Shown: one piece after another, positions 1-24,785 of the stretch
Position numbering within the stretch: the first letter of the stretch is position 1
Layout of the letters: each line of letters starts with the position of its first letter
Source: Zygnema cylindricum
Taxonomy: Eukaryota; Streptophyta; Zygnematophyceae; Zygnematales; Zygnemataceae
NCBI GenBank assembly: GCA_037447655.1
Contig: JBBHKE010000376.1
Location: 28,501-92,500, forward strand
Length of the DNA stretch: 64,000 nucleotides
Direction: 5' to 3'
The notes under the pieces: generated by a model
The model's input: only the letters and a program-made list of their open reading frames with translations
Told to the model about the DNA's origin: nothing
Databases searched by the model: none
Made by a program: the position numbers and the translations under genes

Positions 1-169
1 TTTGTATATTTCTACCGAGTAGTGGTTGTCGACCAAATAACACATTAGAAGGTTGAAATTTGCTAAGCTGGCTTGTACAAACATGCAATAACCCATGACA
101 ATATAATCAATGATTCATCCCACACAGTAATCTATTTCTCAAAACAATGTTTATGCAGAGCCCACTTAA

Positions 170-720
170 ATGTTTGCACCGCCTTCTCCGCCAAACCGTG
201 TGCCTGGGTTGATGTCGAATGGTTCAATGGTGATTGATCAACGCCTCCTCCAACATTTCCTGAAATTTGCCATAGAACTTGGTCCCTTGGTTTGTAAGGA
301 CTTCTGCTGGAGCTCCAAATCGGAGGAGCACATGCTCCTTGAAAGCGGTGGTGGTGAGTTTGGCAGTTTTGTGCAAAGGGCGACCACTTCCACCCATTTG
401 CTGAAATTCTCGATCATGAGCATGAGGTTTTTGTTGCCTCTTTGCGAAACGGGAAAATGACCAACCAGATCACACGACCACCTATAGGAGAGACCTCAGA
501 TATGCAAAGGTTGAAGTTTAGTCTGACGGTTAGAGAAAGAGGTTAGCAACCGGTCACATGTGCTACATCCATGTAACACGGCAACTACGTCTGCCTGCAT
601 GCTCTACCACCAATTACATGCCTGTACCAAACTCAAAGTCCGTTTAGTACCATAATGTCCCAGATTAGTATGAATCTGATCGATAAGTGATAGGCATTCT
701 CTCGGCCGAGGAACATGCCA
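170..720 (-). pseudogene. Gypsy integrase remnant
   Basis: The minus strand encodes an integrase zinc-finger relic (H-x4-H in HTNLGH, then CSTC) at about 715-545, followed by the catalytic core start (CDLVGHFP, then a MIENFSKWVEV block) at about 500-390. The block corresponds to the DxFSKWVE signature of Gypsy integrases, but with E in place of the usual D before N/H-FSKW. At least one stop codon falls inside the zinc finger. Integrase inserts the cDNA into the host genome. This copy is non-functional. Confidence 0.7.
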
Positions 721-917
721 ATGACTTCCATATGAGAGGAGACGGATAAGGGAACCTCCCATCTATAAGTAATTTTGAGCTCTTTTACGAACACGCTCCT
801 CCTCTCCTAGTGTTGTGCTTGTTCGAAATTACTGGGTGGATAAAAATAGGACCAAAGCACTATCCCGCCATGGATTGTATTCAATTTTGTGATATGTGGG
901 ACCCGGAAAATTGTAGA

Positions 918-1307
918 CTAGGTGTGCTCCAGCAGACAACGATGCAAGTGGTTCATCATCAAAATCCTGTCGCACTCCATTATCAGGAGAATTTTGTAAG
1001 GGGTTCGAGAAAGACCGTCGGCATTCAAACTGAGGAGCCCAGGTCGATAGATGATCTCCATATAGTATTCCTGCAAAAGAAGAGCCCAACAGGCTAACTT
1101 GTCGGATAGTTTGTCATTGGTCATGAGCCAATGCAATGGTTGATGGTCAGGGAGAAGAGTGAAAGTCTTACCATAAAGGTAATGGCGGAAATGCACAATT
1201 CTCCAAACGGCATCCAAACACTCCCCCTCATAATATGTAGTTTGACTCTGCTTGATTTTTGCTTCGACTAGCATAAGCCACCATGTATTCCTCACCTGTA
1301 AGCTCAC
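918..1307 (-). pseudogene. Gypsy RNase H remnant
   Basis: A 129-codon minus-strand frame has the classic Gypsy RNase H layout: a GECLDAVWRIVHFRHYLYG block, then DHQPLHWLMTNDKL, then a RPG...LNADGLSR end. This domain removes the RNA template during reverse transcription. It lies directly downstream (minus-strand sense) of the RT frame, as expected. The usual upstream catalytic D region is degraded. Confidence 0.85.
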
Positions 1308-1463
1308 GGTGAGCTAGGATGGCGTCAATACCAAGCCTACCAAAGTCTATCTGTAGGCATAATGGTAACTTATGATTTGGTGATCGGAGAATCGAAGCGG
1401 TGGATAGTGCTTTTTTAAATCTGTGGCATGCCTCAATCTGCTAGGGTCCCCAAGTAAGCTACG

Positions 1464-2420
1464 CTATTTTTTTAAGAGTTCATTTAGTGGGGATGCGAGC
1501 GTGCTAAACCCAAGAACAAACCTCCGATAATAATTAGCCAAACCTAAGAATGCACTCAGGCTCGTTAAATCTGTTGGGGTTGTTAGTTTCCTGATCGCTT
1601 CTACCTTGGCTTCTAGGGAAGTAATTCCCTCGGATAAGATAAAATGCCCGAGATATGGTACCTCTTCAGCCCCGAAGATGCATTTGGATGGATGACATTT
1701 GAGACCCACCTTTTTCAACTCTTTTAATACCCACTCTATATGTGGTGCGTGTTCCTCTATAGAGGATGAAGCAATGATTAAATCGTCAATGTAACAAACA
1801 GGCAAACTTACACCCCCCTTAGACTTAGTCCATAACCTTCTGGAATACGATAGGTGCATTTTTCAAGCTAAAGGCCATAACTGAACATTCCCAACGCCCA
1901 TCACTTCCCCAAAATGCAGTCTTATGTCGGTGTTTTTTCTCTGTTTAAATTTGGTTAAACCCTTGTTGTAGATCTTGAATGCTCAAATATTCAGCCCTTT
2001 CAACATGATCAAAAATGTACTCTACCAAAGGCATTGGATGTCGGTCCTAGATTGTACGCGAATTTAGTTCGCGATAGTCCCCGCACATACGACATTTTTT
2101 GAAATTCCCCTCCGTGTCTCTTTTACGAGGCATGACGGTGGGCGCCGCAAAGGTGGAGTCGGACCTATAAATCAGTCCTGCCTCTTCTAACTCTGAGCAT
2201 TGCTTGTCCACTGCATCCCATTCAGTTTATTATATACGATGCTTGGGTTTGAATATGGGTCTATCATCTTCCAGGCCAATGACATTCTCTAAATGGTGTG
2301 TTGACCCAAATCTTTCCTGGAGTAAGCGAATGCGTTTTAGTGTTCGTTTATAACTCCATTTAACAATTCCGGTTTTGGTTTTGTTTTTCCCGTCCCAAAA
2401 TTCCACGTTGGTTATTCATG
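1464..2420 (-). pseudogene. Gypsy reverse transcriptase remnant
   Basis: The minus strand shows the palm and connection motifs of a Ty3/Gypsy RT. A degraded CxDYRELN block lies near 2,090-2,060, an FSLKNAPIVFQ block near 1,880, and the catalytic YIDDLII box near 1,795. These are followed by YLGHFILSEGI and FLGLANYYRRF. Several frame changes separate the blocks; only the last 131 codons (1,859-1,464) form one open frame. The enzyme copies element RNA to DNA; this copy cannot be translated intact. Confidence 0.85.
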
Positions 2421-2629
2421 TGCGTTGATGGTAATGGCTTCCATGGCCTGTGCCAATGCTAGCTGCTCTTTCCCGACTAAAGACTGTCCCAACTTATACT
2501 CAACTGGGAGCTGATGCTAACAATTTCATGCATGATGCCAACTTCTAGATGGAAATGCAGTTGTCTAGTGTGGGACTGCGCGAACTAGTATCGAAGCTCT
2601 AGCCGTTGTGTATGCAGGAATAGACCAAA

Positions 2630-4054
2630 TCATGTGACTAGGTTCCAAGAAATCGTAAATAGTATGATTTGTGTCCGACATGGCAAAAAGAGGATAAAGA
2701 GAGATATGAAAAGTTGTACCCGGAAGAGAAGGTGAGGATTTACAAGCAATGTGTTTGAATGGTGTATTTCCCCTCCAGCTGATTGAGAACGATAGTTCTG
2801 TGCATATCGATCGGCTACAAACCCTACGCCGAAGACAAATGACAGGGATTGAGGATCCATATTTTGACCAAGTAAGGTGCAGCGCTGCCGCTCACTGAGT
2901 CTTGGGGCAGCGGTAGTGCTTAGAATGAAATGGAGTAAGAGTTCTCTCTGCGCAACAGTAGGTTCTTCTATAATGCCAATATGAGTGCTCTGAAGCATAC
3001 CAGTTCCGTTATGTGAATATGCACGGGAGTTTGGATATGGGACTAATGTAGGAAGTGCACGTAATGGTAGGCCAGGGGTATTAAGACAAACTGCAGGAGG
3101 ATAGTGTGTCTAGACACGTGTTTGGACCTTATGAAATGAAAGAAGTGCTTATTTAATGAAAAGTTTAGGTGGTCGGACAACAAGGTTAGCTTCCTGGAGC
3201 CGGCCTATGTCAACCAGATTAGTCCACTAGGAACGAACTTTGTGGGACTGCGACCCATGACGTGCGGCATTGATTATTAGTGGGGGTCGAATAAATGATT
3301 CGATACGTTTGTAATTTGTGAGAACCATAGGTCGGGGGTCATTATGAGCCGCGACGTTTTCTAAAACGTGTCCAAAGGGACGGTTTGATGACTAAAAGAA
3401 ATGGATAAGATGCACTACCTCAAAGAACAGTTTACTGCGCGGATCTGCTAGACCTGAACCCTTCCAAGCTCGAGACATACCCTGACATTCCCATCCTGCA
3501 AAAAGGAGATCGATTGGTTGTAACTTCTCCAGGTGGTGATTACCTATTAGACCGATATCCTTCACTAAAGCTGAATGCATACTATAAAACGCAGACTGTG
3601 GTAGGAGGTGAGGGTATTGTTTATGTAAGATTTGACAGTGGTGCAACTGAGCACCTCTAGCCAAAGGGTCACTATCTACGGAATAAATCTGCTTGATTAG
3701 AATATCGTTCCTAAGGCATAAGAGAAGTGTGGTACCTATTCTTGCAAACACGTCTAAGATAACAAGACCGTTTGGGTTAGGTTGTAAACTGACTAGCTTC
3801 CATTCAATCGGCAGAAACCCGGAGGGATCTTTTACAATCGCAGGTGGATCCGGAATACTGAATAAAGGAATTGGTGCAGTAAACTTATAGAAACAGTCAA
3901 AATTTGAAGAGTCAATAATAAAACCTAGGGTGCCAAATAATTCCGCCATCCTTGAGAGTTCTGGTAAGATTTCTTCCGCGATTAAAGATTCAAAAATATG
4001 AGCACCTATACAACCTGCAGCATAGGCTGGCAAGACAAACGCAGAATGAGCCAT
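2630..4054 (-). pseudogene. Cytosine-5 DNA methyltransferase module within Gypsy pol
   Basis: The 220-codon minus-strand frame at 4,054-3,392 has a motif I block (VILDVFARIGT), a SAM-pocket acidic stretch (YSVDSDPLARG) and a motif IV block (LLFAGWECQGMSRAWKGSG) followed by LADPRSKLFFEVV. These are hallmarks of C5-methyltransferases; the Cys of CQG is the usual nucleophile. A second frame (2,998-2,630) carries TTAAPRLSERQRCTLLGQ, which resembles the C-terminal motif IX/X region. The gap at 3,391-3,000, where the target-recognition domain should lie, is broken. Two key positions deviate: R for G in FAGIG, and E for the Pro before CQG. The product would methylate cytosine in DNA. It could in principle be a separate host pseudogene trapped between repeats, but its fit between PR and RT on the same strand favours a pol module. 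Confidence 0.75.
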
Positions 4055-4259
4055 AGTAGGAATGGGTTGATGAACTGAGATAAAAGGTAAGCAAACTTTG
4101 CGTTTCGGAAAATCTTTTGATATGTACGAAAACGTTTGATCTACATATCAACCCTCCCCCCTACTCATAAAATGACGTCCTGGCTGACCAAGTACTTATA
4201 ATCACTACACTTGGTGACCAAAGCGTGAGCATATATTTTTGCGAAATCGGATTTTTGAT

Positions 4260-4876
4260 CGACACTGAAATTGAAAACATAGTGGTTCTTTTGTCCTACG
4301 TAGGACTGGTGTTATGGTTCATACGGAAGTCAACAAACGAATGGTAGTGGGTTGTAGTGTATCTGCCGTAAGATCTATTTTTTTGGCAAAATCTGATTCG
4401 AGGATAATGGGTTTTTCCATTGTGTCTAAGAGAGGTAAAGTTTGGGCCACCCCATTATCTGTGAACACACATAACTTCTTATCGTGAAAACTGATGTGTG
4501 GAGTAAGAGTGGAACGCTCTTCGTTAGTAATTGCTTGAAGAGATAGGGTACTACGATGGTGTTAAAGCGCTTCTAATGCATGAACATATTGAGATAGATA
4601 TGAGGAATTAGCCTTGTTAATCGATTTAGGAAACATAGTGGACAGTATTGCTCACCGTTTTTTGACCTTATAGGCATCTTGTTTACTCCCCTCTAGAATA
4701 GTTAAGGCCTCAGCAGTGATGCTAAAGACTATTTCCGGGATAAGGGTTTTAGGTTCTTTAGCGAAAGATAATGGTATGCGAGTGTTAATGGATTTAGACT
4801 CACCATTATGATCGGGTCCCTTTGAAAAGATCTGCCCAGTGTTAAACGGTTGATTCTCGGAGAGATCGCCCAACAA
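4260..4876 (-). pseudogene. Gag/protease-like segment of the Gypsy element
   Basis: Two minus-strand frames lie upstream of the methyltransferase: 74 codons at 4,876-4,652, and a frame at about 4,556-4,260. The second contains LPLLDTMEKPIILESDFAKK, resembling the PIILGxDF segment near the end of retropepsin-like domains of Gypsy elements. The catalytic DTG/DSG triad is not visible. I assign a protease role from position and this one motif only. The 74-codon frame is unrecognised. Confidence 0.4.
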
Positions 4877-5115
4877 AAGAGGGCATATGGACTACGGTTT
4901 GGGCAATTCTAGTTAATTGCGGTTTAACCTACGCCATAAGCGCGGTAAACTGCTCCTTTATAAGGAGGAAGAAGAGGCGAAAATCCTAGAGGAAGAGGGG
5001 GAAGAGGACATGAAAGGGCTGGAGATCTCCTTCCCAGCCCGGATATTCAGATCCGACCAATTTTGCGTTTTTTTAGTGCAGCAATCTCGATGACATGGTG
5101 GCTTCTTGCCCAGAT

Positions 5116-5490
5116 GAGGAGCGTCAATGTCATTTTTGCGGGAAATGGGGCCATATTAGCCCCCAGTGTTTTTCAAAGGCTGAAAATAGAGGAGCCAACC
5201 GTAGAGGAGACGGCGGCGGCCGATAAGGTGGACGCGGCAACGGTCATCTTGGCGGCCCCGGTGGTCATGGAGGCCGCCATGGAAGAGGAGGAGGACACTT
5301 TATGGGTGACGATTACTTTGAGGGAGGCGACGAAGAGCAAATATTTTCCGCCCTTAACCTATTGCTTGATCTTTTGACACATTCTACACTACACGAAAAA
5401 GAGTGCATTATTGACACTGGAGCGTCACATAACATTTGTACTGACGCTTCACTCTTTGACGATTTTTGTGACCTCACGGTACCAAAATGA
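5116..5490 (+). pseudogene. Copia1 gag zinc knuckle and aspartic protease
   Basis: In the frame with codons beginning at 5,128 there is a CCHC knuckle (CHFCGKWGHISPQC, 5,128-5,169), which binds element RNA in Gag. It is followed by a Gly/Arg-rich linker, a TAA stop in that linker, and the protease active-site block CIIDTGASHNIC (5,404-5,439). DTGA is the catalytic triad of retropepsins. Only the last 62 codons (5,302-5,490) are continuous. Confidence 0.75.
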
Positions 5491-5799
5491 ATCACTGTTG
5501 TACGTGGACAAGTGAGTTCGATAAGTATCGTGGGTACTGTAAAAATTGGATTTGCCAAGATTAGACTCACGTGGGGTAGAAAAAGTTACGCAAATTCAAT
5601 TAACAAATGTTTTGTACTTACCTAAAGGATCAGTGAACCTTCTCAGTGTACCGCAGATTTAGTGAGCGGGCGGCAACATACTTGCGTACAGAGACTCCAC
5701 AATAAAAATTGTACGATCGGATGTGTACAAATAGGTGAAGGAGAAGTCACGGATTTTATGCATAGTCGCCTAAAATGGCGTCGGCCAAAATTCCCCCCA

Positions 5800-6269
5800 A
5801 ATTCTAATGGTATTTTTTCGCAAAACTTTGAGTTGAAAGGCCATTTAACCTTGTGGCACCACTGGATGTCTCACACATACGAGACGAGTTTACGACGGAT
5901 GATAAAAAATGTAAGCGTGCGGGAAATGGACTTGGCGTCGGGGCAAAAATTTAATGGGTGTGAAGAGTGTAGTAAGGGGAGACAAATCTGAAAGCTACAT
6001 CCGGCTAAGGGTCCCATGCATCGATCTAAGCATCCGCTTGATCTAGTGCAAATTGATTTATGTGGGGACGTGAAACCAAAGACGATTGGTGGAAACAAAT
6101 ATATTATGGTGGTGGTGGACGACTTCTCTCGCTTCACATGGGAAATATTACTAAAACACAAATTCGAAACTTTTTTACATTTTCAAGAGCAGTATGTGAT
6201 GGCCGAAAGGGAATGTGAGAGAAAGTTAAAATCTATTAGATCGGATAATGGAGGGGAATTTATTGCTTT
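5800..6269 (+). pseudogene. Copia1 GAG-pre-integrase and integrase, 5' part
   Basis: The frame encodes a pre-integrase zinc-binding segment (LTLWHHWMSH, then CEECSKGRQ) and the integrase core start. The core includes LVQIDLCGDV (first catalytic Asp), VVVDDFSRFTW and RSDNGGEFIAF (second catalytic Asp in SDNGGE). A TGA interrupts it at about 5,989. It ends at 6,269, where the solo LTR inserted between the codons for A and F of GGEFIAF. Confidence 0.8.
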
Positions 6270-7175
6270 TGTTGAAAAGAGGTAATTAGTATTTCACTTC
6301 CCTGTTTTAGTTTTGCTTTAAAGAAAGAGAGTGAGGATCAAAGGCGCGCCATGGCTGCCGCCATATTTAGAAAGTGGCAGTTTTTCAAGTAAAGGGTATT
6401 TTACTAAAATGATGCCTAAGTCTAGATTTGAACCTATGACCTCTAAAGTCTCTATAGCCTAACGCCTTAACCATTTAGGCGTTACGAAACGATACACGTG
6501 ACGGGTTTTATAAATACATAAACATTAACGCAACAGTTAATTAACAGCATACTAACCTAAAGGAGCAATTTCTGCATGTACGCAAATCTAAACCGTGTAA
6601 AATATGTTTTGATCGGACGGCCGACATTATAGCCGACACGCGAAGTGAGCTTTTTGGCGGCATACGGAGATAGCGTCACGCGGTGCCACGTGGCGCCACA
6701 TTATTTGATACCGGAAAAGATGGGAGGAGGAACCATGGCTTCCGATTTGACATGTGTCACCTTGTAGACCTTGTCGTACAATGGTCGTACAATAAGTACA
6801 TCGCCCATTGTACCTTCTTGTACTATATAGTGTTCCTATTGGACTAGGGTTTAGTAGTAGGTAGTCGTGAGTAGGCAGACCAAGACTTAGTGATATTTAG
6901 GTACCTCTCTCTAATAAGAGAACTTGCAACTATAAAGGTCATCTTTGACCAACCATAACGTACTGCTCAGGGGAGCAAATTCAGTGATTCTTTTTGCGTT
7001 TGACTCAAGGGAGTCTTGTCATCACAGGGGTGAGAGTGGTCAGAATATTTGTGTGCCTGGGCGGCGCTTATTCAGCGGGAAAGTAGAAGGGGAAAATATT
7101 ATCCTAGAGGCTTTCCATAGGTTGGCTTTACATAGGCTGCTCATTCTGTGGGTCAATGGAGACCACAGAATTTTA
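6270..7175 (+). repeat. Solo LTR, family B, inserted in copia1 integrase
   Basis: This 906-bp segment begins TGTTGAAA and ends AGAATTTTA (family ending TTTCA, here mutated). It is flanked by GCTTT at 6,265-6,269 and 7,176-7,180, an exact 5-bp target duplication. Removing it together with one GCTTT restores the integrase reading frame. It matches, in reverse complement, the LTR at 12,136-13,372, including the shared TGGCGCCACATTA and CGTACAATGG stretches. No internal region is present, so it is a solo LTR formed by LTR-LTR recombination. It contains a minus-strand tRNA-like stretch at 6,423-6,486. Confidence 0.85.
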
Positions 7176-7943
7176 GCTTTTGATCCTTATTCTAAAGTGT
7201 GGGGAATTTCTCACCAATATACTGTATCTTACTCACCGTAATCAAATGGCGTTGCGGAAAGGGAGAACCGCACTCTTTAAGAGATGGTACGATCCATGGT
7301 ACACGGATCGGGAAAGAGCATTTATTTATGGGGCGATGCAATTTTGACGGCAAATTATATTTGCAATCGGAGGATTACATCGGTTTCGGATGATAAAACT
7401 CCGTACGAATTGTGGTATGGCCGAAAACCTACTCTTCACCGCATTCGGATTTGGGGATGTTGTGCATCGATTTATATTCAAGCACAAAAGAGAAAAGGAA
7501 AATTTGCATCAAGAAGTTGGAGTGGTTATTTTGTGGGGTATAGCAATAAAGGGAGTATTTATCAAGTTTATGATCCCATTCGGAATGTCATTGAGGAATC
7601 AAGGAATGTGGATTTTCACGAGGATTTATTATCCACAATCTCTCTATCCTTCAAACGTCATTCTAATCTTGATTTTCATGAGGAATTTGAAATTTGTGAT
7701 CTTCGTGACATTGAGGGTTCAGATTCGAAAACTGATCCGGAATCCACCTCCAATGTTAAGAGGGGGAAAGATAAAATTGTGGAAAATGTAAATATTGATA
7801 ACATTGGTGGGGATTCACGAAGCGAAAATTCCCAAATGTCTTCGGACACGAGAAAATCTTCGTCTTCTAAATCGAGTGGACGGAATATCATTGAGGAGGA
7901 ACCGGCAAAGGGGAAAAAGAATTTGAGCCGAGGAGGAGTATGA
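7176..7943 (+). pseudogene. Copia1 integrase, 3' part
   Basis: The frame resumes with GISHQYTVSYSP, a stop (CAA to TAA), then SNGVAERENRTL. The third catalytic acidic residue is in the GVAERE block. It continues through TPYELWYGRKPTLHRIRIWGC and a YFVGYSNKG block typical of the Copia integrase C-terminus, then a Ser-rich acidic linker up to 7,943. Later frames are broken. Confidence 0.8.
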
Positions 7944-8129
7944 GAGAGAATAGGGGAAAGAAACCGGCTCGTCTTTCTTTCGATGGTAAGGGATATATTG
8001 AAAATTCTTGTTATTATATTTCAAGGGCTAGGGAGGAGGATTTCTTCTTATAGCAATCATTTTGGGACTATATGTCGGGCGATCCGCAATCGTACATAGA
8101 AGCACAAAATTCATGCAATTGGGAGAATC

Positions 8130-9027
8130 ATTGGAAACCAGAGTGGGAAAAAGAACTTTAATCTATCATCAACAGACGAACATTTGAGGAGGTAAGTTTA
8201 CCGGAAGGTAAAAATACTATTGATGCGAAAGTGGATTTTTAAAACTAAAACTTGTGCATCGGGGGAAATAGTAAAACATAAGGCTCGGCTAGTTTGTAAG
8301 GGCTTTCAACAAAGGGAAGCAGTAGATTATACGGAGACATGCACCGGAAATGAAGTTTGATTCTTTAAGGATGATCATTGCTATTGCCGCTACCGGCAAA
8401 AAGCACATTCACCAAATGGACGTAGAGACGGCGATCTTGAATGGTGATTTAGAGGAGGAGGTTTATATGAAATTTCTGGAGGGAGTAGTGTCGAAGGAGG
8501 GGATGGTATGGCGGCTCCGAAAGTCCTTATACAGACTAAAACAAGCACCGCGGACTTCGTATTTACGATTACACAAGGTCTTTAAAGAATTTGGATTCGT
8601 ACGAACAATTTCAGATTCTAGAGTTTACGTAAAAGGTGAGGGGGAGGATCAAATCAAATTTTTTGTCTACGTGGATGACTTTTTAATAATATTTGCCAAG
8701 TTTACGCGAATTGCGAAATTGAAAGAATACGTGCGTCTACATTTTAAAGTCAAAAATTTAGGGGAGGTACAATGTATTCTTGGAGTGGAAGTTTTAACGT
8801 ACGAAAATAGGGATATTAAATTGTCGCAAGCGCAATATCGTAAAGAAGTACTGACAAAATTTGCTATGTTGGATTCTCAGCCGGTTTTGACACCACTAGA
8901 TTCCAAACTTCAATATCACAAATTTGAGGAGGAGGAGGAGGAGGAGCAACTCATCAAAGCATATCTCCCCTCATCAAGGCAAAGATGCTCTAAGACGCTA
9001 ATTTTCTACATGTCTACAGATGTTTAA
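8130..9027 (+). pseudogene. Copia1 reverse transcriptase, truncated
   Basis: From about 8,200 broken frames encode the Copia RT opening (KHKARLVCKGFQQ), then a 225-codon frame from 8,350. That frame includes HQMDVETAILNGDLEEEVYM, SLYRLKQAP and the catalytic box FVYVDDFLII near 8,670. After QPVLTPLDSK the sequence runs into a short GAG repeat (8,926-8,946) and ends near 8,990, so the thumb, connection and RNase H are missing. Confidence 0.8.
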
Positions 9028-9029
9028 TA

Positions 9030-10500
9030 CAAGTTAGTCATATACATGTACTTAAGTGTGATGAGAATAAACGTACAAAATTGTGCCATAACCATACCAT
9101 GAGACAAAACATATAGGAAGAGTCATATGTTTAAACCTCACAAATAGACAAACTATAACTATTGAACGCTATTGTATTGCTGAAATAATGACAAAATTAC
9201 CGATGATTTACAAATGTAAATGGTGTTGGAGACTTTGTAGTCCAGGCTTTCACCAACTACAGTCAAAACTAGTACGAAAAGAAGCTACCCAATTCAAATT
9301 TGATGTTTTACACATATTTCCATATGCAATATAGACATATGTTCCTAAATGCTGATAAGTTGTTTAGCTACATATGCAAAAAAGGCGTGCTACTGGGTTG
9401 CGCTCCAATAATAAATTTTACTCCCATTGAGAGGCTAAGGGTGACGATGATTTGTTTTGCTGCCCCCGACTCACAACAGATATGGAGTGCATGAAAACTA
9501 TGGCATGTGGAGAAATAAACTCATCACATGAAGTTAGAAAGTATTCCTAAAAGTGGGGATCATAAGGAGCAAAAACACTTGCCGACACAAACAACTTGGA
9601 TTTCCACAATGCTAAAAAAAAACAAAAAAATCATTATATCCATGCAACAATATGGTTTATATATGGAAGGAAGTGCTTACCTGTTTCACCGATAAATACT
9701 GTGGTTTTTGAAGCACATACTAGTGCACTCTTTCATTGCACTTTGGGCTTGTGAGGGATACGGTGTAGTTGTAAAACGCGGTATTGTTGGTTCTCGCAGC
9801 CCCTTTTGGGAAGAGCGCACTTGGATTAAGAAGTGAGTGGACGATGTGTGACGACACGGTTGTGGGTAATTTCGATAAAATTGTTAAAAAATGCAAAAGG
9901 AAAAGGTAAAATAAAAATTAAGTGCAAAGATCATTTGGAATTTGCGAGAATTTAATGTATAGAGAGGCTTGCAGAAAAGAAAAAAACAGTTCAAATTATA
10001 ATTGACATGTCCAGCCAGGTGTTTTGAACATCGTTAGGGTGGTAACGAAGGAGCACCAACACGATAGCGAGTGTATTGGTATTTTTGACATTCTCGTGCA
10101 CAAAGTGGTTTTCCATGGCGGACAAAAGGTCGTTGATTGTGTGCTAGGACGGAACGTGCACATCAAACTGCTTTAAGCGAAAAATGTCTTCAAAAAGTCG
10201 AACTAAGTTCACCGTTTTCTCCTGCGGCACCACCTTTGGAATCTCCCAAAGCCATGGCTGCTGTCAATATCATTTTGTGGAATTTCACAAAGAGAGATCT
10301 TCAAAATAAAAAAATCTTGTCTTTCAACAAACACAACGGAGCAAATACATTATTTTGACAGCAAAGAAATATGGTGGATGCTAGCAATAGTTTAAGAGAA
10401 TTCAATGACTCATTACTTTTTGTTTAAAAACTTTATTTTTTAATATACTTTTTACGATCAAAGAACCCGAAGGACAGCTATTAAGCAAAGGTACCGCACC
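9030..10500. other. Unassigned spacer between Copia remnants
   Basis: I see no convincing gene. Short frames occur but lack recognisable motifs. The stretch is AT-rich and probably holds decayed repeat sequence, possibly including part of the copia4 3' LTR at its right side. Confidence 0.5.
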
Positions 10501-11907: not shown

Positions 11908-14214
11908 TGAAACTCTGAGACCTCCATAAGTCCTCAGAGTGGACAGCTTCCAAGAAGCCTCTAGGATAACCTTGACCCCTTTGTGTTTCAGCAAGAACAA
12001 CTACCACCCTAGCAAACAAAAACTTTGACCAACTTCACCTCTATGAAGGAAAGACTCCCATGAGTCGATATCAAAAAGAATCCCTGAATTTTCTCCCCTG
12101 AACAGTAAGTTATGGAGGGTCAAAATTGACCTTTTTGAAATTCTATGGGCTCCATTGCCCACAGAATTCGCAGATCCAAAAGAAGCTAATCTAGATAGTG
12201 CCGACTCCAAGTTGATATAAACCCAAATGAATGATCCCTTGATAATCAAAACCCCAATACAACTTCACCATTGTGAAGATAAGACCTTGTGTGTGCTCAG
12301 TTCCACCACAGAATGCAAAGCTTGAATATGTGTTTTGGACAGTATTCCCCACTTTGACTTTCCCACTGAATAAGTGCCACCCTGACACGCAAAAACCTCT
12401 GACCGACTACACCACTGTGTAGCTTGGACTCTCTTGAGTCCGCAGCAAAAAGAATCACTGAATTTGCTCACCCGAGCATTAAGTTATGGCTGGTCAAAGA
12501 TGACCTTTATAGTTACAAGCTCTCTTAGAGAGAGAGGTACCTAAATATCACTAAGTCTTAGTCTGCTTACTCACGACTACCTACTACTAAACCCTAGTCC
12601 AATAGGAACACTATATAGTACAAGAAGGTACAATGGGCGATGTACTTATTGTACGACCATTGTACGACAAGGTCTACAAGGTGACACCTGTCAAATCGGA
12701 AGCCATGGTTCCTCCTCCCATCTTCTCCGATATCAAATAATGTGGCGCCACGTGGCACCGCGTGACGCGATCTCCTTATGCCGCCAAAATCTCACTTCGC
12801 GTGGCGGGTATAATGTCGGCCGTCTGATCAAAACATATTTTACACGGTTTAGATTTGCGTACATGCAGGAATTGCTCCTTTTGGTTAGTCGTTTGTTAAT
12901 TAGTTGTTTTGTTAATGTTTATGTATTTATATAACCGGTCGGGTGTATCGTTTCGATAACGCCTTATTGGTTAAGGCTTACCTCTACAAACATAACCACA
13001 GACCATGGTTCAAATCTAGTCTAGAGCAGTTTTTGGTTGTGTTAGTTTGTTAGAACTCTCTACTTCTACACGTATAAATACCTATTATACCCAACATATC
13101 CCATCGTTGACTCTAAGCTATAGGTTAAAGCTAACGGCTGTAAAGGGTTATAGGTGCTAGGATCAAATCCTAATTCTCGCAATCCTCTTTTGCTACAAAC
13201 TACGAATCAGCCTATCCCCTTTAGACAACCATGGCACTAGCTCTCTCTCTGGTCTTCAGTGACTGCAACAAGTATGGGGACCGGAGAGATTTGAGCAAGA
13301 AGCATGCTGCCTTTGTTGACTTACTCTATTTATTTTTCCAATAGAGACCTAGTAAATGCATAAATTTCAACACTTTTACAAAGAAGATCTCTGGGGGAGA
13401 GGGTCCTATCTACAAATTTTTCTAAGTCCTATATCTCTCACAAACTCTATCTACTAGTGTACGACACCAATCATATTAAACTGTCGTACATAAAATTACA
13501 GCCGCTTGTGTAATTTATGTTCGGAAATTGTACGACATGGCCTAAAAATCGACACATGTCATATTCGGATTCGGTGTCATAATCCGCGGAGATACCGCGA
13601 TCCAACGCAATTTCGCCACATGTCATCCGATGTGGCGATGACCATAAACCGCCAAGAATCTCTTCCGCAATCTTGGCTTTCTTCCCAGTCGTCCGATTAA
13701 ATGTAGATTTCAATCGGAGCCGTCATAAATACATGCGCGGTATTTGTTTCGTAAAAGAAACAAAATACGCGATACTTGTTTGTTGTCCATACCGTAATCC
13801 GTACGTTTACATAACGGTTTCTATGAAACCGTAAACATCCGCAATTAAATGAATTTTCCGACGTCGTAACATATAAATACGAATCACACCTAATCGTATA
13901 TATCAGAACTTCTATACTTAACGGCTAAGGCTACCGGGTACCGGCGCTTTGAAGGTCGGCAGGTGCCAGGATCAAATCCTTTCACCAACATATAACTTTT
14001 AGTAAATAAACCTTCCTACCTGTAAATAGAATAATCTATTTCCCGTAAACCTCTAGATAGCCCAGATAGCCATGGCTCTAGCTTCCTCTCCAACTTCTTA
14101 GTGACGGTAACAAGTGTGAGAGTATAAGAGAGAAGTTAGAGGCAGACTTCCTCGGCTTCTTTCAATATTCCAATTTAGACCTAGAAAATAATGAAATAAC
14201 CATCGATTTCTACA
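11908..14214 (-). repeat. Copia3b 3' LTR, split by a solo LTR
   Basis: The two parts, 14,214-13,378 (LTR start, TGTAGAAATCG) and 12,135-11,908 (LTR end, GTTTCA), add up to about 1,065 bp. That is close to the 1,053-bp copia3a LTR and the 1,049-bp COPIA2 LTRs. The break is filled by the family B solo LTR. An antisense tRNA-like module lies near 13,920-13,985 and a TTTGTTTC/GAAACAAA palindrome near 13,742-13,770. Confidence 0.8.
12136..13372 (-). repeat. Solo LTR, family B, inside copia3b 3' LTR
   Basis: This 1,237-bp segment reads TGTTGAAATTT at its minus-strand start and TTTCA at its end. It is flanked by CTTTT at 12,131-12,135 and 13,373-13,377, an exact target duplication. Removing it reconnects the family A LTR sequence around the word GACCTTTT. 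It is the inverted relative of 6,270-7,175. Two tRNA-like A/B-box modules read on the plus strand (12,964-13,018 and 13,115-13,170), antisense to the LTR. Confidence 0.85.
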
Positions 14215-14548
14215 CTCCCTTTTTTTTCCAGTCAATCTTTAATCTCAGACCACACTTCTCCTTGCAGAAACTTAGTTTGGGGGAAGGCAAAGGTTTGGTC
14301 ATCATATCTGCTACCATCTCGCTATTTGGTAGGTACTCTAAACTGATTATTTTGTTTTCTACTTTCTCTCTAGAAAAGCTGAGTCTAATATCCATGTGTT
14401 TAGCTTTAAAATAATGTTTAGGATTGGCAGAAATAGCGATTGCAACCTGATTATCACAAAAAAAAAATTGCACACCACTCTTAAGGTGACCAAGCTCACC
14501 AAGCAAAGACTTGACCAACATCAATTCTTTTGGAGCAAAGCGAGAGGC
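14215..14548 (-). pseudogene. Copia3b RNase H C-terminus
   Basis: The minus-strand frame encodes KELMLVKSLLGELGHLKSGV, FFFCDNQVAIAISANPKHYFKAKHMD and the end MVADMMTKPLPSPKL, the Copia RNase H C-terminus. A polypurine run (GGAAAAAAAAGGGAG) precedes the LTR start at 14,214. It is the continuation of the frame that stops at 20,994, with COPIA2 between. Confidence 0.8.
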
Positions 14549-15597
14549 TGTAGAAACTAATGGTTCTAAAGTATTTTCTAGGTCTGAAAAGAAATAAAGA
14601 AACCGAGGCAGTTTATCTCTAACTTCTCTCTCCAACTCTCAAACTTGTTGCAGTCACTGAGAAATTGGAGAGGAAGCTAGAGCCATGGCTACCTAGGCTA
14701 TCCTGAGTTTTACGGGAAATTTGTATTAGTTAGGGTTTATTTATTTAAAAGGTATGTGCCGGCGACAGGAATTGATCCTTGTACCTACCGGCCGGCAGAC
14801 AAGAAATAGCCGGTAGCCTTAGGCGTTAAGTATAGGATTAGTGTTACGTAGTATATAGTTTGATAATTATTTAAATATGTATACGTACGATATTTCATTT
14901 AACTGTAATAGATTACGGGATACATAGATCTGGTAATATATAAAGTACGGATTACTGTACGGACTAGAAATCAATACCGCGCATTTGTTTCGTAAGTGAA
15001 ACAAATACCGCGCATGTATTTTCTACGGCTACGATTAAATCCGAATTTAATCGGACGACCGCAATTAGCGCCGAGATCGCGGAGGAAAATTTCGGCGGTT
15101 TGTGGCCATCGCCACATCAGATGACGTGTGGCGAAATTACATTGGATCGTGGAATCTCAGGAGATTATGGCACCGAATCCGGATATGACATGTGTCGACA
15201 TTTAGGCCATGTCGTACAATGTCCGTACCTAAAGTACACCGGCAACTGTACTTTTGCATACGGAACTCAATTCTGATTGGTTTCGTACATCAGTAGATAG
15301 AGTCTCTGAGAGAGATAGAACTTAGAAAAATTAGAAGATAGGACCCTCTCTCCCAGAGAGCTTCTGTACAAAAGGTCAACTTTGACCCTCCATAACTTAC
15401 TGCTCAGGGAAGCAAATTCAGAGAATCTTTTTGCTATCGACTCAAGGGAGTCTTGCCTTCACAAGGGTGCAGGTGGTCAGGGTTTTTGTCTGCCAGGTTG
15501 GCAGTTCTTTTTCCTGAAACACATAGGGGTCAGGATTATCCTAGAGGCTTCTTGGAAGCTGTCAACTCTGAAGACTTATGGAGGTATCAGAGTTTCA
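14549..15597 (+). repeat. COPIA2 5' LTR
   Basis: Begins TGTAGAAACTAATGG and ends GAGTTTCA directly before the PBS. It holds an antisense tRNA-like module (about 14,764-14,829), a palindromic ATTTGTTTC...GAAACAAAT hairpin between two CCGCGCAT words (about 14,975-15,018), and a GTCGTACAATG motif near 15,213. TATA-like or transcript-start sites cannot be placed with confidence. Confidence 0.9.
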
Positions 15598-15612
15598 GGT
15601 TATGGGCCCACC
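15598..15612 (+). promoter_or_regulatory. Primer-binding site for half initiator-Met tRNA
   Basis: GGTTATGGGCCCACC follows the LTR end immediately. It is exactly complementary to the anticodon stem-loop of plant initiator tRNA-Met (…GGTGGGCCCATAACC…) rather than to a tRNA 3' end. Drosophila copia is known to use a cleaved 5'-half of initiator tRNA-Met with the same PBS word, so I infer the same priming here. The ATG within the site (15,602-15,604) is the gag start codon. Confidence 0.8.
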
Positions 15613-16700
15613 CTCTAGGGTACCAATCTTTAATGGAACTGGCTTCATATACTGGGAAAGTATGATGATAGGAGCTTTATGCGAAAAAAGGTTTTGGGGG
15701 ATAGTGAGTGGACGGTTGGGGCGTCCATCAAGTCTTGGAATTCCTCCAGGGTTTGGAGGAACCAGATTCACCAGGAAAGAGGTTCCACCTTCGACGGCGG
15801 AAACAAAAGAAGGAGAGGTGGTGGACAAAGGAAAGGAGAAGGAGACGACCACACCAATAACAACTGGTTCGACGTTCATGTCACCTATTCCGAGGAATGA
15901 GGAGAATGATACTGAAACCTGAACTTCAACAATATGGCGGCAAAGCACTTCATCCTACGCCATCTCACTCAAGGACTTGCATGTCCTCATTTGCAGGTAA
16001 AAAGGGCATCCGATCTTTGGATGGCTCTCATAGAGATGTACCAAAGTGGTACGATTCAGCAATAACAGTTGGCTGATCAAAAAGTTAAGGAGTATGTATA
16101 CAAAGGGGGAAATATGTTGGATTTATGCAATGAGCTTGCTACACTCTTCATGGAGCTAGAGAGTGCGGGAAAAGATTTTAGTGAAAAATAAAGGGTTAAT
16201 TGTTAACTGATGAAGTTACTTGATGAGTTCGTGAACATAGTTTATCGTGTGCAGGACTTGCCTGACTCAAGGTGGATATGGAACTCAGTGGTAGGGATGA
16301 TTCTCGTTCAAGAGAATACAATTGAGATCCGAAGGGGAGGAAAGAGTGGTCGAGCCTTGGCAACAGCGACTGATTGGAGGAACAGGGATTCCCGAAAACC
16401 GGTCGGAAACTATGGGGGTAGGGAGCAGAAAAAACAGGCAGATGAGTTCGAACCAAGGGCTCCCAAAGGTCTATGTCATTTTTGTAAGAAACCGGGGCAC
16501 TATATGGCAGAGTGCACTAAGCTAACCGAACTTCGGTTAAAGGAAGGGCAGATCGGTGGTACCTCGAGAGGAAAGAAAAAGGCCCTTGTCACACAGGTTC
16601 TTGAGGCGGAATCCGAGGACGAGGACGATGAGCTCCTTTTGGATGAGGAGTTGGAGGCGAAAAATGAGGTCGAAATTCCACGAAGGCAAAAATGTGCTTA
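15602..16700 (+). pseudogene. COPIA2 gag, interrupted
   Basis: The frame starts MGPPSRVPIFNGTGFIYWES, the usual Copia Gag opening (substrate-like F-x-G-x-x-Y-x-W). It is broken by TGA at 15,920-15,922 and TAA near 16,064. The relative copia3a has sense codons there (TGG, CAA), so both stops are single transitions. A CCHC zinc knuckle (CHFCKKPGHYMAEC, 16,474-16,515) ends the capsid/nucleocapsid region. A Glu/Asp-rich linker leads into protease. Confidence 0.8.
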
Positions 16701-19700
16701 TGGTGGATTAAAAGGTGAAGCAGGCTGGATTGTAGATTCAGGTGCCTCCATGCACATGTGTAAGGATAGACACCTGTTCACTAAGATAAGAAAGATTCCC
16801 ACCGTAGAGATAGAGTACGGGGATGGGAGGATAGTCACCACTACTCTTGTAGGATCGGTAGATCTGAAAGTATTAGTAGAAGGAAAGACATCCATATTAA
16901 CATTCTCCGATATATTGTTTATTCCGGAGCTGAAAAAAAATCTTATCTCTACATCAGTATTAGATGATAAGGGTTTTTTCACTAGCACTAGGGAAGGAGT
17001 CTTTACTGCTAGTTTTGAGGATGATGTCTATTTCATTGCTGAGAAAGGTAGCCATGGGATGTTTAGGCTGATCTTAAGTAATGAAAAGAAGAAACTTTAT
17101 TATGTTGGTGTTCATGATATTATGATGTTGCATAAGAGGCTTGGGCATGTGAATCTAGATAAGTTAAGAGAGATGAAAAAGATGGGAGTGGTGGAAGGGA
17201 TTCAGTTCAGTGAAAGTGATGATATAAGTGATTGTGGTGGATGTGCTCAAGGTAAAACACACAGATTACCCTTTCCTAAATCAGCCACCTATAAGGGAGA
17301 AAAAATTCTAGATCTAGTACACATAGATATTTGGGGACCGGCTAAAGTGCCCTCACCAGGGGGGAAGAGATTTATGATGATTATAACTGATGATTGGTCT
17401 CGGTATTCCCGGGTATATTTTTTCAAAAACAAGTCCGAAGCTGAGGATTGTTTTAGACAATATAAAGCATGGAGCGAAAAACTCCATGAAACTCCAATCA
17501 AGAGAGTAAGGAGTGACAATGGTGGAGAGTATATTTCTAACGAGTTTGAGGATTTTCTTAGGGAAGATGGGGTTCAACACCAAAAGACAGTTCCAGAAAA
17601 TCCGGAACAGAATGGGGTAGCTGAAAGGTTAAATAGAACACTAAGTGATAGTGCTAGAAGTATGTTGTCAGATAAAAAGATAGGAAAAAGGTTTTGTGCA
17701 GAAGCAATGAACTGTGCTAATTACCTCAAGAATAGAGTTCTTACTTCAGCTATAAAAGATCAAACACCTTATGAGAGATGGACAGGCCCGAAACCAGACA
17801 TATCTCACTTAAAGGTTTTCGTCAGTCAAGTTTTCAGTCTAGATACTGATCGATCCAATTAGAAGCTAGATCCTAAAAGAAAACTTGGATATTTATTAGG
17901 ATATGATGAGGATGTTAAAGGATATTGAGTTTACAATCTAAAGAGGAAAGATATAATCTTAGTAAAGCATCTAGTAGTTATAGATGAAGGAAAGTCTGTG
18001 GATCCCTTCAAATATACGAAATTAGTAAAAATCAGATTTGAGTCAGAAAATTCCGATGACTTTGAGCTTCCTAACTATCCAGGTTTTAAAGAAGATCACA
18101 TTCTTGCAGGAACAAATCAAACCGAAAAGAACTCGGCTGTGGAAACTCTAGTGACAACTCTACTCGAAGTGGAAGACGTGGTGGAAATTGATTTGGAATC
18201 AAGGGATAGGGGAGAAGCCGAGTTTGTTCGAAAGAATCCACGAGAACCATCTATTCCGGCCTCAGATTTTGAAGGGGGGAGGAGAAGTAGCAAAAGACTG
18301 CAAGAAAAACAAGTTAATAACAAGGTAACTAAACTATCTCATCAAGATTAACCTCAAACTTATGGAGAGGCGATGACTTGTCCAGAAAGAAACCGGTGGA
18401 AGACAGCCATCAATGAGGAGATGGTTTCAATCATGGCAGCCGATACTTGGGAGCTGGTGGACTGTCCACCTAACCGAAAACCAATCGGTTGTAAGTGGGT
18501 TTTCAAACTAAAACTGAACCTAGATAACACAATCAAGCGCTACAAGGCCAGATTAGTGGCAAAGGGATTTACACAAAAGGAAGGAATTGACTACGAGGAA
18601 ACCTTTGCCCCAGTGGTCAAATTTCCCTCCGTCCGCATACTTCTCAGTTTAGCAGCGGCGGAAGACATGGAAGTTCATCAGATGGACATCAAGACAACAT
18701 TTTTGCATGGAGAATTGGAAGAGGAGATCTTCATGCGACAACCCGAAGGTTTTGTGGAGGAAGGAGAGAAGAGTAAGGTATGCCGGCTGATTAAATCTCT
18801 TTATGGTTTGAAACAAGCACCTCGACAATGGAATAAGAAGCTTGATGAGTTTCTTACGGGTCTGGGATATATTCGGATCAGCTCAGATCACTCAATCTAT
18901 GTTTTCGAAGATGAGGAAGGTTTTATATTTATTGCAATATATGTTGATGATTTGCTTGTTTTAAGTAAATCAATGGAAAAAATTAACAAATTGAAAACCG
19001 ATCTTAAGGGGAGATTTGAAATGAAGGATATGGGAGAAGCAAGATATATTTTGGGAATTCAAGTAGAGAGAGACCGAAAAAGGAAAATTATAAGACTGAC
19101 TCAAAAGGAAGCAATAGGGAACATGCTTGAAAAATTTCAAATGGATAAAGATAATAGTTGTAAAACTCCAATGGAGTTGAAGAAGGGAAGTGAGGGGAGT
19201 GAGGAAGGAGTCATAGTCTTAGACGAGGAATTATCTCCTGATGAACAGAAGTTCATGCAGACTATTCCTTACAGGCAAGAAGTGGGAAGTCTAATCTATT
19301 TTATGAATTGTACCCGGCCGGATTTAGCTGCATCTGTAGGAGTGCTGAGTAGAAGTCTAAATGCTCCCACTAAGAAGGATTGGGAGGCAGCTAAGCGAGT
19401 CCTTAGATATTTGGTAGGAACTAGGGATCTATGGTTGCATTTGGGTGGGGAGAATATTGACATCACTACTTGGAGTGATGCTAGTTATGGTGATGCTCCG
19501 ATGAGGAGATGCACTTCTGGATATGTATTATATGTGGGTGATGGGGCTTGCTGTTGGAGTAGCAAACAGCAAAAGGTTATTGCTCAGTCCACCATGGAGG
19601 CTGAGTATATGGCCTCTTGCTTTGCTGTAAAAGAATTGATGTGGGTCAAGTCTTTGCTTGGTGAGCTTGGTCACCTTAAGAGTGGGGTGCATAAATATTT

Positions 19701-19930
19701 TGTGATAATCAGGCAGCAATCGCTATTTCTGCCAATCCTAAACATCATTTTAAAGCCAAACACATGGACATCAGACTCAGCTTAGTTAGAGAAAAAGTAG
19801 AAAACAAAATAATCGGTTTAGAGTACAGACCAGATAGTGAGATGGTAGCAGATATCATGACCAAACCTGTGCCTTCCCCTAAGCTAATTTTTTGGACGGA
19901 GAAGTGTGGTCTGAAATTAAAGATTGACTA
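16700..19930 (+). pseudogene. COPIA2 pol: protease, integrase, RT, RNase H
   Basis: Protease shows IVDSGASMHMC (DSG at 16,735-16,743). Integrase shows HKRLGHVNLDKL and CGGCAQGK (zinc site), then DIWGP, RSDNGGEY and EQNGVAERLNR for the D,D,E triad. RT opens YKARLVAKGFTQKEGIDYEETF and has IAIYVDDLLVLS (YVDD 18,950-18,961). RNase H has TTWSDASYGD and QSTMEAEYMA. Stops occur near 17,860, 17,926 and 18,349, and a frameshift near 19,705. The longest open parts are 550 codons (16,210-17,862) and 470 codons (18,373-19,785). One polyprotein would have been cleaved by the protease. Confidence 0.9.
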
Positions 19931-19944
19931 GAAAATAAGGGGAG

Positions 19945-20993
19945 TGTAGAAACTAATGGTTTTAAAGTATTTTCTTGGTCTGAAAAGAAATAAAGAAGCC
20001 GAGGCAGTCTATCTCTAACTTCTCTCTCCAACTCTCAAACTTGTTGCAGTCACTGAGAAATTGGAGAGGAAGCTAGAGCCATGGCTACCTAGGCTATCCT
20101 AAGGTTTACGTGAAATTTGTATTAGTCAGGGTTTATTTATTTAAAAGGTATGTGTCGGAGACAGGAATTGATCCTTGTACCTACCGGCCGGCAGACAGGA
20201 AATAGCCGGTAGCCTTAGCCGTTAAGTCTAGGATTAGTGTTACGTAGTATATAGTTTGAAAATTATTTAAATATGTATACGTACGATAATTCATTTAACT
20301 GTAATAGATTACGGGATACATATATCCAGTAATATATAAAGTACGGATTACGGTACAGACTAGAAATCAATACCTCGCATTTGTTTCGTAAGTGAAACAA
20401 ATACCGCGCATGTATTTATAACGGCTACGATTAAATCCGAATTTAATCGGACGGCCGCAATTAGCGCCGAGATCGAGGAGGAAAATTTCCGCGGTTTGTG
20501 GCCATCGCCACATCAGATGACGCGTGGCAAAATTACATTGGATCGTGGAATCTCAGGAGATTATGGCACCGAATCCGGATATGACATGTGTCGACATTTA
20601 GGCCATGTCGTACAATGTCCGTACCTAAAGTACACCGGCAGCTCTACTTTTCTGTACGAAACTCAATTCTGATTGGTTTCGTACATTAGTAGATAGAGTT
20701 TGTGAGAGAGATAGGACTTAGAAAAATTAGAAGATAGGACCCTCTCTCCCAGAGAGCTTCTGTACAAAAGGTCAACTTTGACCCTCCATAACTTACTGCT
20801 TAGGGGAGCAAATTCAGTGATTCTTTTTGCTATTGACTCAAGGGAGTCTTGCCTTCTGAAGGGTGCAGGTGGTCAGGGTTTTTGTCTGCCAGGTTGGCAG
20901 TTCTTTTTGCTGAAACACAAAGGGGTCAGGATTATCCTATAGGCTTCTTGGAAGCTGTCTACTCTGAGGACTTATGGAGGTCTCAGAGTTTCA
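19945..20993 (+). repeat. COPIA2 3' LTR
   Basis: Direct copy of the 5' LTR, same length, preceded by the purine run AAAATAAGGGGAG. It ends TTTCA at 20,993 and is followed by the GAGGC target copy and interrupted copia3b coding sequence. One difference of note is GGTCTCAGAG where the 5' LTR has GGTATCAGAG. Confidence 0.9.
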
Positions 20994-22674: not shown

Positions 22675-22691
22675 GCACATCGGGTTTTATA

Positions 22692-23642
22692 AACAAAAAC
22701 TTTCACCAACTTCACCTTTGTTAAGGCAAGACTCCCCGGAGTCAAGAGCAAAAAGAATCTTTGAATTTTCTCCGCTAAACAGTAAGTTATGGAGGGTCAA
22801 AGTTGACCTTTTGTACATAAGCTCTCTAGGAGATAGGGTCCTATCTATCAATTTTTCTAAGTCCTATCTCTCTCACAAAATCTATCTAATGGTGTACGCC
22901 ACCAATCATATGAAAGTGTCGTACATAAAAGTACAGCCGCTGGTGTATTTTATGTATGGAAATTGTACGACATGGCTTAAAAGTCGACACATGTCATATC
23001 CGGATTCGGTGGCGTAATCCCTGGAGATACCGCAATCCAACATAATTTCGCCACGTGTCATTCGATGTGGCGATGACCATAAACTGCCGAGAATCTCTTC
23101 TGCGATCTCTGCTTTCTTCCCGCTCGTCCGATTAAATGTAGATTTCAATCGGAGCCGTCATAAATACATGCGCGATATTTGTTTCGTAAAAGAAACAAAA
23201 TGCGCGGTACTTGTTTCTTGTCCATAGCGTATTCGGTACGTTTACATAACGGTTTCTATGAAACCGTAAACATCCGCCGTTAAATGAATTTTCCGACGTC
23301 GTAACATATAAATACAAATCAAACCTAATAGTATATATCAGAACTTCTATACTTAACGGCTAAGGCTATCGGCGCTTTGACGGTCAGCACGTGCCAGGAT
23401 CAAATCATGTCACCCACATATAACTTTTAGTAAATAAACCTTCCTACCTGTAAATAGAATAAGCTATTTCTCGTAAAACTCTGGATAGCCCAGGTAGCCA
23501 TGGTTGTAGCTTCCTCTCCAACTTCTCAGTGACTGCAACAAGTGTGAGAGTTTGAGAGAGAAGTAAGAGGAAGACTTCCTCGGCTTCTTTCTATATTCCA
23601 ATTTAGACCTAGAAAAAAATGAAATAACCATCGATTTCTACA
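22692..23642 (-). repeat. Copia3b 5' LTR, truncated at its inner end
   Basis: Starts TGTAGAAATCGATGG at 23,642 and matches family A LTRs until about 22,692, inside the CAAAAACT...TTGCCTT stretch. A 17-bp filler (22,675-22,691) then joins it to the RT linker. The missing tail, PBS, gag, protease and integrase indicate an internal deletion. It contains the palindrome GTTTCGTAAAAGAAAC (about 23,179-23,194) and an antisense tRNA-like module (about 23,357-23,415). Confidence 0.8.
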
Positions 23643-24505: not shown

Positions 24506-24785
24506 CCCTTGATTCTGAATCAATTTCCACCACGTCTTCCGCTTCGGGTAGAGTTGTCACTGGAGTTTCCACAGCGGAGTCCTTTTCGGACTGATTTATA
24601 CCTGCAAGAATGTCATCTTCTCTAAAACCTGAATAGTTAGGAAGCTCAAAGTCATCGGAATTTTCTGACTCAAATCTGATTTTTACTGACTTTGTATATT
24701 TGAAGGGATCCTAAGACTTTCCTTCATCCATCACTACTAGATGCTTTACTAAGATTATATCTTCCCTTTTTAGATCATAAACTCT

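Follow-up and report, generated by a model that had tools for sequence, protein, structure and literature searches.

The window, that is, the whole stretch of 64,000 nucleotides that was analysed, contains one dead copy of a multi-copy family of Gypsy-type retrotransposons, and copies of this family with long open frames are present elsewhere in the genome. In the Pol region of the family, the order is protease, methyltransferase, reverse transcriptase (RT), RNase H, DDE integrase and PHD finger. Our main reading, to which we give a probability of roughly 0.6, is that of a recently active family in which the element-borne methyltransferase would methylate the element's own new DNA, and in which the PHD finger would dock the complex on chromatin.

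The features of the window copy are collected in Table 1. Analysis by blastn against another copy, C1344, gave 75.7% identity over positions 4961-3767 and 78.6% over 3766-3. Breakpoints of the methyltransferase's own, which the preliminary description had named as evidence against its belonging to the element, were not seen in the aligned copies: the alignment of the window copy to C1344 is collinear and unbroken from 4961 to 3. A third copy, C2678, was 86% identical to the window copy over 3.5 kb. The window copy runs past the left edge of the window, and its 5' part (gag and repeat A) gave no alignment there. Its PHD finger, which contains two stops, and one repeat B are situated just left of the window, at locus L176. 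A second methyltransferase copy was not found within the window, and tRNA and Rfam scans of the window gave no matches. A special CpG depletion of the window copy was considered and rejected, as the values obtained for the copy (0.71) and for its methyltransferase part (0.80) are near the 2-kb median of the window (0.74).

Table 1. Features of the element copy in the window
Feature	Positions	Strand	Basis or remark
Decayed Gypsy-type element copy (linker, protease, methyltransferase, RT, RNase H, integrase)	3..4961	-	collinear blastn to copy C1344
Protease-like segment, frame-shifted, directly upstream of the methyltransferase	4156..4435	-	tblastn, C1344 protease piece, 65-68% identity
Predicted DNMT3-type cytosine-5 methyltransferase, 448 codons, 4 in-frame stops	2803..4147	-	frame open on to about 2632
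Motif IV GWECQGMS, Glu-Cys replacing Pro-Cys	3473..3496	-	common to nearly all copies read
Reverse transcriptase, C-terminal part as open stretch	1464..1862	-	PF00078, E=2.4e-10
RNase H	918..1313	-	PF17917, E=1.2e-14
Integrase (H2C2 and DDE core), frame-shifted	111..1005	-	tblastn, C1344 integrase piece, 51-76% identity
Start of the integrase-to-PHD stretch	2..111	-	alignment to other copies

The genome (352,776,454 bases in 2689 contigs) was searched with the N-terminal half of the methyltransferase as query, and 150 of 1521 first-look candidates were scored. At least 150 matches, that of the window included, are present genome-wide; all scored ones had E values of 1e-79 or better, and the 149 others were 51-79% identical to the window copy. 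Ten copies were read with 10 kb on each side (7.4 kb for one of the sides). These were picked for long open frames or high scores and not at random, and, as all ten had been found via the methyltransferase, they could not lack it. Downstream of the methyltransferase, RT and RNase H were found at a fixed spacing in nine of the ten, and no RT match was obtained for the tenth, C1158. Other copies with the methyltransferase-RT order, for which the preliminary description had suggested looking, were found in this way.

The methyltransferase domain and its Glu-Cys motif

The methyltransferase motifs of the window copy are read in a single minus-strand frame: motif I is LDVFARIGT, motif IV ECQGMSRAWKGSG...DPRSKLFF, motif VI LENV, motif VIII SHKVRS*WTNL and motif X LSERQRCTLLGQ. 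Motif I, motif IV and the C-terminal block, which had been described earlier on this strand, therefore all belong to one frame. The extent first given for the domain was 2630..4054; the frame stands, but its upstream limit goes a little further, to 4147. Over the 448 codons, 4 stops were counted in this frame versus 25 and 26 in the other two minus-strand frames. When the stretch was shuffled, the mean number of stops was 22.5 (sd 4.5), and none of 2000 shuffles had 4 or fewer.

Features of cytosine-5 methyltransferases (PF00145) are present, namely motifs I, VI, VIII and X in order and the catalytic cysteine. The window protein matched PF00145 with an E value of 1.4e-7, above the cut-off of this family, and NCBIfam dcm with 3.1e-7, but in the latter case with 30.3 bits for a cut-off of 100.65. 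Comparison with the PDB gave DNMT3B at 1.2e-6 (identity to a DNMT3B segment of about 30%); the best 29 of the 42 rows were DNMT3A/B/C, and the remainder were M.HhaI and M.HaeIII. For a stop-free copy, E was 2.1e-10 and the best 29 of 42 rows were again DNMT3. The motif order I-IV-VI-VIII-X is un-permuted, so that the circular permutation of DRM is absent, and no row named DRM, DNMT1, CMT or DNMT2 occurred among the 42 PDB rows of the window protein or those of the stop-free copy; on these grounds, the four types were rejected.

Phage methylases are roughly as near to this domain as DNMT3 is. In 2.3 Gb searched by tblastn, a pelagiphage methylase was the best phage match (2e-8). With the window protein alone as query, no relatives were confirmed in the viral and prokaryote collections; an alignment-led search based on the window protein and four phage enzymes gave 447 viral relatives, of which 80 were kept, 65 of these being distinct and complete. 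By blastp, these 65 scored 57-74 bits versus 52 bits for the DNMT3B segment, and four viral relatives fell below or beside the DNMT3B segment when the matching segment alone was used as query. Since the viral set is the best of many, such scores give no demonstration of a phage origin.

A structure model was built from the window protein, in which stops were replaced by Q, together with 60 of the 65 viral relatives (mean pLDDT 61, pTM 0.60). In a fold search with this model, the best 50 of 1494 matches (E up to 10) were all DNMT3-family entries. Judged by the best solved-structure match and by the un-permuted motif order, the domain is predicted to be of the DNMT3 type.

Motif IV was read in 74 copies drawn from the 150 listed methyltransferase matches: 8 from the first search (that of the window included), 6 from the long-read copies, 40 more, and 20 short stretches taken from the lowest-ranking matches. 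Glu-Cys was present in 69 of them, the other forms being VC (2), EY (2) and KC (1), and Pro-Cys was found in none. The cysteine is thereby kept in 72 of the 74. Pro-Cys was read in all 65 complete viral sequences, and the Glu-Cys pattern, when looked for at the DNA level in viral contigs, gave three loci, none of which was a methyltransferase. As nearly all copies read have Glu-Cys, its explanation by decay of the window copy alone was rejected. Among the 53-54 copies covering the positions concerned, motif I, ENV and motif VIII are largely conserved; the motif I glycine, which is an arginine in the window copy (FARIGT), is a glycine in 42 and an arginine in 8 of the 54 copies covered.

In both lineages of the family, Glu-Cys is carried by copies whose repeats are near-identical, and we therefore take it as a maintained trait; since the cysteine and the residues of ENV and motif VIII are retained, we infer a functional variant of the catalytic loop. 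To our knowledge, this would be the first cytosine-5 methyltransferase lineage that stably lacks the motif IV proline. As this near-invariant residue is absent, a loss of methyl transfer is possible, and this is the main doubt on the mechanism that we favour. The domain may be catalytically dead or altered and be retained in Pol for DNA binding or as a scaffold, much as DNMT3L is kept without activity. We hold this explanation to be a serious one, though unlikely: it draws on the contrast between the copies of the family, where Pro-Cys was never read, and the viral relatives, where it is constant, and it accords less well with the retention of the cysteine and with the conservation of motif I, ENV and motif VIII. 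If the enzyme is active, the Glu-Cys site would revise what counts as essential in a highly conserved DNA methyltransferase motif.

It is also conceivable, but improbable, that the methyltransferase acts on targets other than the element's own DNA, such as rival transposons, invading DNA viruses, or RNA. Antiviral roles have been argued or speculated upon for transposon methylases, according to a passage of Morozov et al. 2019 (PMC6338049), and among the sequences compared here the viral enzymes score somewhat above the DNMT3B segment. Against this, the methyltransferase is fixed in Pol beside RT and integrase, which favours an action on the nucleic acid handled by the particle, as in our main reading.

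Anatomy, selection and recent activity of the family

The open frame of C1344 was compared with Pfam in eight pieces. No match was obtained for the first 400 residues; the matches recorded were a CCHC zinc knuckle (1.3e-4), PF00145 (1.4e-12), RVT_1 in one piece (1.2e-19), RT_RNaseH (1.5e-35), Integrase_H2C2 (4.4e-16), rve (7.4e-13) and, at the C-terminus, a PHD finger (4.6e-11). The protease piece gave a weak aspartyl-protease match, whose best E value (0.011) was below the cut-off, and none of the eight pieces matched a tyrosine recombinase in Pfam. The assignment of the RT to Ty3/Gypsy is based on Pfam matches. The position previously proposed for the methyltransferase, between a protease-like segment and a Gypsy RT, was also recovered in the window copy, in which RT (PF00078) and RNase H (PF17917) follow on the same strand.

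That an ordinary host DNMT3 gene or pseudogene lies beside a Gypsy fragment by chance has practically no probability: native DNMT3 genes do exist in streptophytes, as reported in the main text of PMC5890265, but no intron interrupts the stretch across all motifs, the alignment of the window copy to another copy runs unbroken across protease and RT, and 149 other relatives were scored, so that this explanation was rejected by copy number, by the fixed RT spacing and by collinearity. The possibility, envisaged at the outset, that homologues exist only as a stand-alone host gene is itself refuted by the many element-borne copies.

Longer sequence was obtained for 54 copies, 30 of which gave at least 430 codons in one alignment, and seven of these 30 were free of stops. 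Among the 21 pairs formed by the seven stop-free copies, nine non-independent pairs had a usable Ks above 0.05, and their median Ka/Ks was 0.19 (interquartile range 0.09-0.25). Between the C1344-like and C829-like lineages, Ks was saturated and Ka was about 0.2-0.26. As far as codon substitutions in these pairs can tell, the values show that the methyltransferase is under purifying selection. The RT is more constrained, with a Ka/Ks of 0.03 for the pair C1112/C1344 versus 0.10 for the methyltransferase. In very close copies, the methyltransferase Ka/Ks reached 0.50 (C829/C1915), and these higher values in very close pairs make the claim of purifying selection weaker for the youngest copies.

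The repeats were compared in nine of the ten long-read copies, C1158 being left out. A layout of the form A-coding-B-A-B was complete in four of them (C1344, C829, C1915 and C449); in C1407 both B repeats are present without an A upstream, and the layout was not seen in the remaining four. The two A repeats were 100% identical over 931 bases in C1344, 99.6% over 1388 in C829 and 99.5% over 1475 in C1915, and 80% identical over about 1.2 kb in C449. Repeat B extends over 186-243 bases with 95.7-99.6% identity, and a G-rich, polypurine-like tract is situated just before the first B. The element ends are TGTCATGC...GCACGACA. Both ends were available for four copies, and in three of these a perfect 4-bp target duplication was found (TTGG, AAGG and CCCT); the flanks of the old copy C449, TCAT and GCAT, are alike at three of the four bases. 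Three copies from two lineages therefore combine repeats that are 99.5-100% identical with perfect 4-bp target duplications: the family has been recently active. In a separate case (L102/L103, copy C1112), the stretch with which repeat A usually starts recurs inverted downstream, at 97% over 964 bases; C1112 is a rearranged or nested copy.

The preliminary description had also suggested looking for full-length copies with LTRs enclosing the methyltransferase. Repeats are found on both sides in the four copies with the A-coding-B-A-B layout; two complete LTR units on both sides of the coding part were found in none of the nine copies compared. The layout is thus DIRS-like, yet the enzyme is a DDE integrase that leaves a target duplication. 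The junction of two repeat units, CACGACA-GC-TGTCATG, is present inside elements, and it would appear to be this junction that the integrase cuts, not ends made by reverse transcription. Taken together, the place of the methyltransferase as a fixed part of Pol, its many copies, the repeats and target duplications, and purifying selection agree with the initial proposal of a Gypsy-type lineage that carries its own methyltransferase.

The PHD finger, the proposed mechanism and the host genome

A PHD finger was present in eight of the ten downstream sides of the long-read copies, and C2678 and C1112 gave no PHD match downstream. Among solved structures, it is closest to PHF12, BAZ2B, Lid, WSTF and PHF21A, several of which read unmodified H3K4. 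When the genome was searched for this PHD finger, 984 candidates were obtained, of which 150 were scored; 14 control genomes gave none. The positions of the 150 scored PHD matches were then set against those of the 150 listed methyltransferase matches. At least 29 of the 150 scored PHD matches are located 3.5-4.5 kb downstream of a listed methyltransferase match on the same strand, for a chance expectation of 0.03, and the median spacing was 3823 bases. Within 15 kb of a listed methyltransferase match, 41 PHD matches were found, all on the same strand and one of them upstream.

According to the main text of PMC9915684, the PHD family of Zygnema cf. cylindricum SAG 698-1a is at least 9-fold larger than those of other Zygnema strains. 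Element-borne PHD fingers may well explain this reported expansion, and the counts of PHD 'transcription factors' in such genomes may be transposon counts.

In the mechanism that we favour, the methyltransferase would travel in the particle together with RT and would methylate the DNA newly made by the element itself, either ahead of integration or immediately afterwards. The PHD finger carried by the integrase would dock the complex on chromatin via the histone H3 tail. With writer and reader acting together, a new copy would be laid down already marked as silent DNA, and this silent marking might both lessen the harm to the host and hide the copy. A more far-reaching reading, which is possible but which we hold as tentative, is that of a reader-writer built by a retrotransposon: a DNMT3-type methyltransferase with a derived Glu-Cys loop, possibly with changed chemistry or substrate, would be joined to an integrase PHD finger, so that histone state would decide where new copies go and methylation would mark them from the start, and the spread of the element would account for the 9-fold PHD expansion in Zygnema cf. 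cylindricum. Transposons are ordinarily on the receiving end of DNA methylation. What a transposon would gain from methylating DNA is a testable question in the present case, since a single genome offers young and old copies for comparison.

As for the host, the preliminary description had spoken of a land-plant-type genome. This is probably wrong: the host would be a zygnematophyte alga, with GRAS matches on only 12 contigs and an abundance of PHD fingers that fits Zygnema cf. cylindricum. GRAS occurs in zygnematophytes and in land plants. Here, these 12 contigs hold 27 GRAS matches in all, and the 14 control genomes gave none; a moss would have several times more, and for a land plant 12 contigs are few. 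Although seedless land plants produce flagellate sperm, no match to radial-spoke proteins of flagella was obtained in the genome, a weak result since the 14 controls were silent as well. A land-plant host (moss, lycophyte or fern), for which the GRAS genes and the SBP-box gene of the window would speak, is unlikely. The genome of Zygnema cf. cylindricum SAG 698-1a is given in the main text of PMC9915684 as 359.8 Mb in 3587 scaffolds, with 29.8% Copia and 5.9% Gypsy; neither 'DNMT' nor 'DNA methylation' appears in that main text.

The rest of the window is of mixed content. A Copia-type element, recognized by eye on the plus strand at 4964-9030, begins a few bases from the alignment end (4961) of the truncated Gypsy copy; a stretch interrupts it, and one part of this interrupting stretch, 6419-7104, recurs inverted at 12337-13022 (87.7%). 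Several other Copia-type copies, also seen by eye, lie in both orientations at 13373-28168; pairs among them are about 77-95% similar, and open frames reach 551, 477 and 398 aa. Large imperfect palindromes, each matching its own reverse complement, were found at 28197-29175 (73.6% over 1.0 kb) and 31416-33288 (82% over 1.9 kb). On the plus strand, an SBP-box transcription factor gene occupies 35392-36237 and 39658 onwards; its SBP domain is split by an intron of about 3.4 kb, glycine-rich tandem repeats are present and, by eye, further exons probably extend to about 51.5 kb. A 293-aa open frame on the minus strand, at 60709-61590, resembles by eye the tail of a LINE-type reverse transcriptase and gave no Pfam match.

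Comparison with known systems

The closest known element, compared by description, is KnitGypsy-Dnmt3 of the charophyte Klebsormidium nitens, which is presented in the main text of de Mendoza 2018 (PMC5890265) as an LTR Gypsy element with a DNMT3-related, unrearranged and intronless methyltransferase in Pol, with repeats as in DIRS and a Ka/Ks below 0.2. The same text reports that the activity of this methyltransferase in yeast was inconclusive, and that K. nitens has fewer element copies than Symbiodinium. The Zygnema family resembles KnitGypsy-Dnmt3 in its unrearranged and intronless methyltransferase, predicted to be of the DNMT3 type, in the Pol of a Gypsy element of a streptophyte alga, in its DIRS-like repeats and in purifying selection, although it stays below the Ka/Ks limit of 0.2 at its median only (0.19, interquartile range 0.09-0.25). 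It differs from the published description by what is probably another host, by its at least 150 scored matches and by the 4-bp target duplications shown here. The Glu-Cys motif IV and the C-terminal PHD finger may be further differences; no word beginning with 'PHD' occurs in the main text of that paper.

SymbioDIRS-Dnmt3 and SymbioLINE-Dnmt of Symbiodinium are likewise retrotransposons with captured cytosine methyltransferases (main text of PMC5890265). The A-coding-B-A-B layout is common to SymbioDIRS and the Zygnema family. However, SymbioDIRS is a DIRS element with a tyrosine recombinase and SymbioLINE a LINE, whereas the Zygnema family has a DDE integrase downstream of RT and RNase H. A phrase search of open-licence PMC papers for DNMT-carrying retrotransposons found only de Mendoza 2018, which is cited in a passage of a 2025 survey stating that DNMT3 members are embedded in streptophyte and dinoflagellate retrotransposons (PMC12344493). 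Methylase transposons are absent from land plants according to a passage of Morozov et al. 2019 (PMC6338049), and, if the host is an alga, the present family does not contradict this; a land-plant host would.

DNMT3A and DNMT3B of animals are the closest solved structures to the Zygnema methyltransferase, by sequence and by fold, but DNMT3 has Pro-Cys where the Zygnema family has Glu-Cys. In animal DNMT3, a PHD-like reader (the ADD domain) is found beside the methyltransferase, whereas the chromatin reader of the Zygnema family comes last in Pol, far from the methyltransferase. Chromoviruses, Gypsy elements in which a chromodomain follows the integrase, likewise have a module that reads chromatin at the C-terminus of this enzyme; in the Zygnema family, this module is a PHD finger and not a chromodomain, and a methyltransferase is present in addition. 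The element is thus of a known kind, KnitGypsy-Dnmt3-like, with an unusual change in its Glu-Cys active site, and it adds a second streptophyte family, apparently far more abundant than the first, that keeps an enzyme of probable DNMT3 type under selection.
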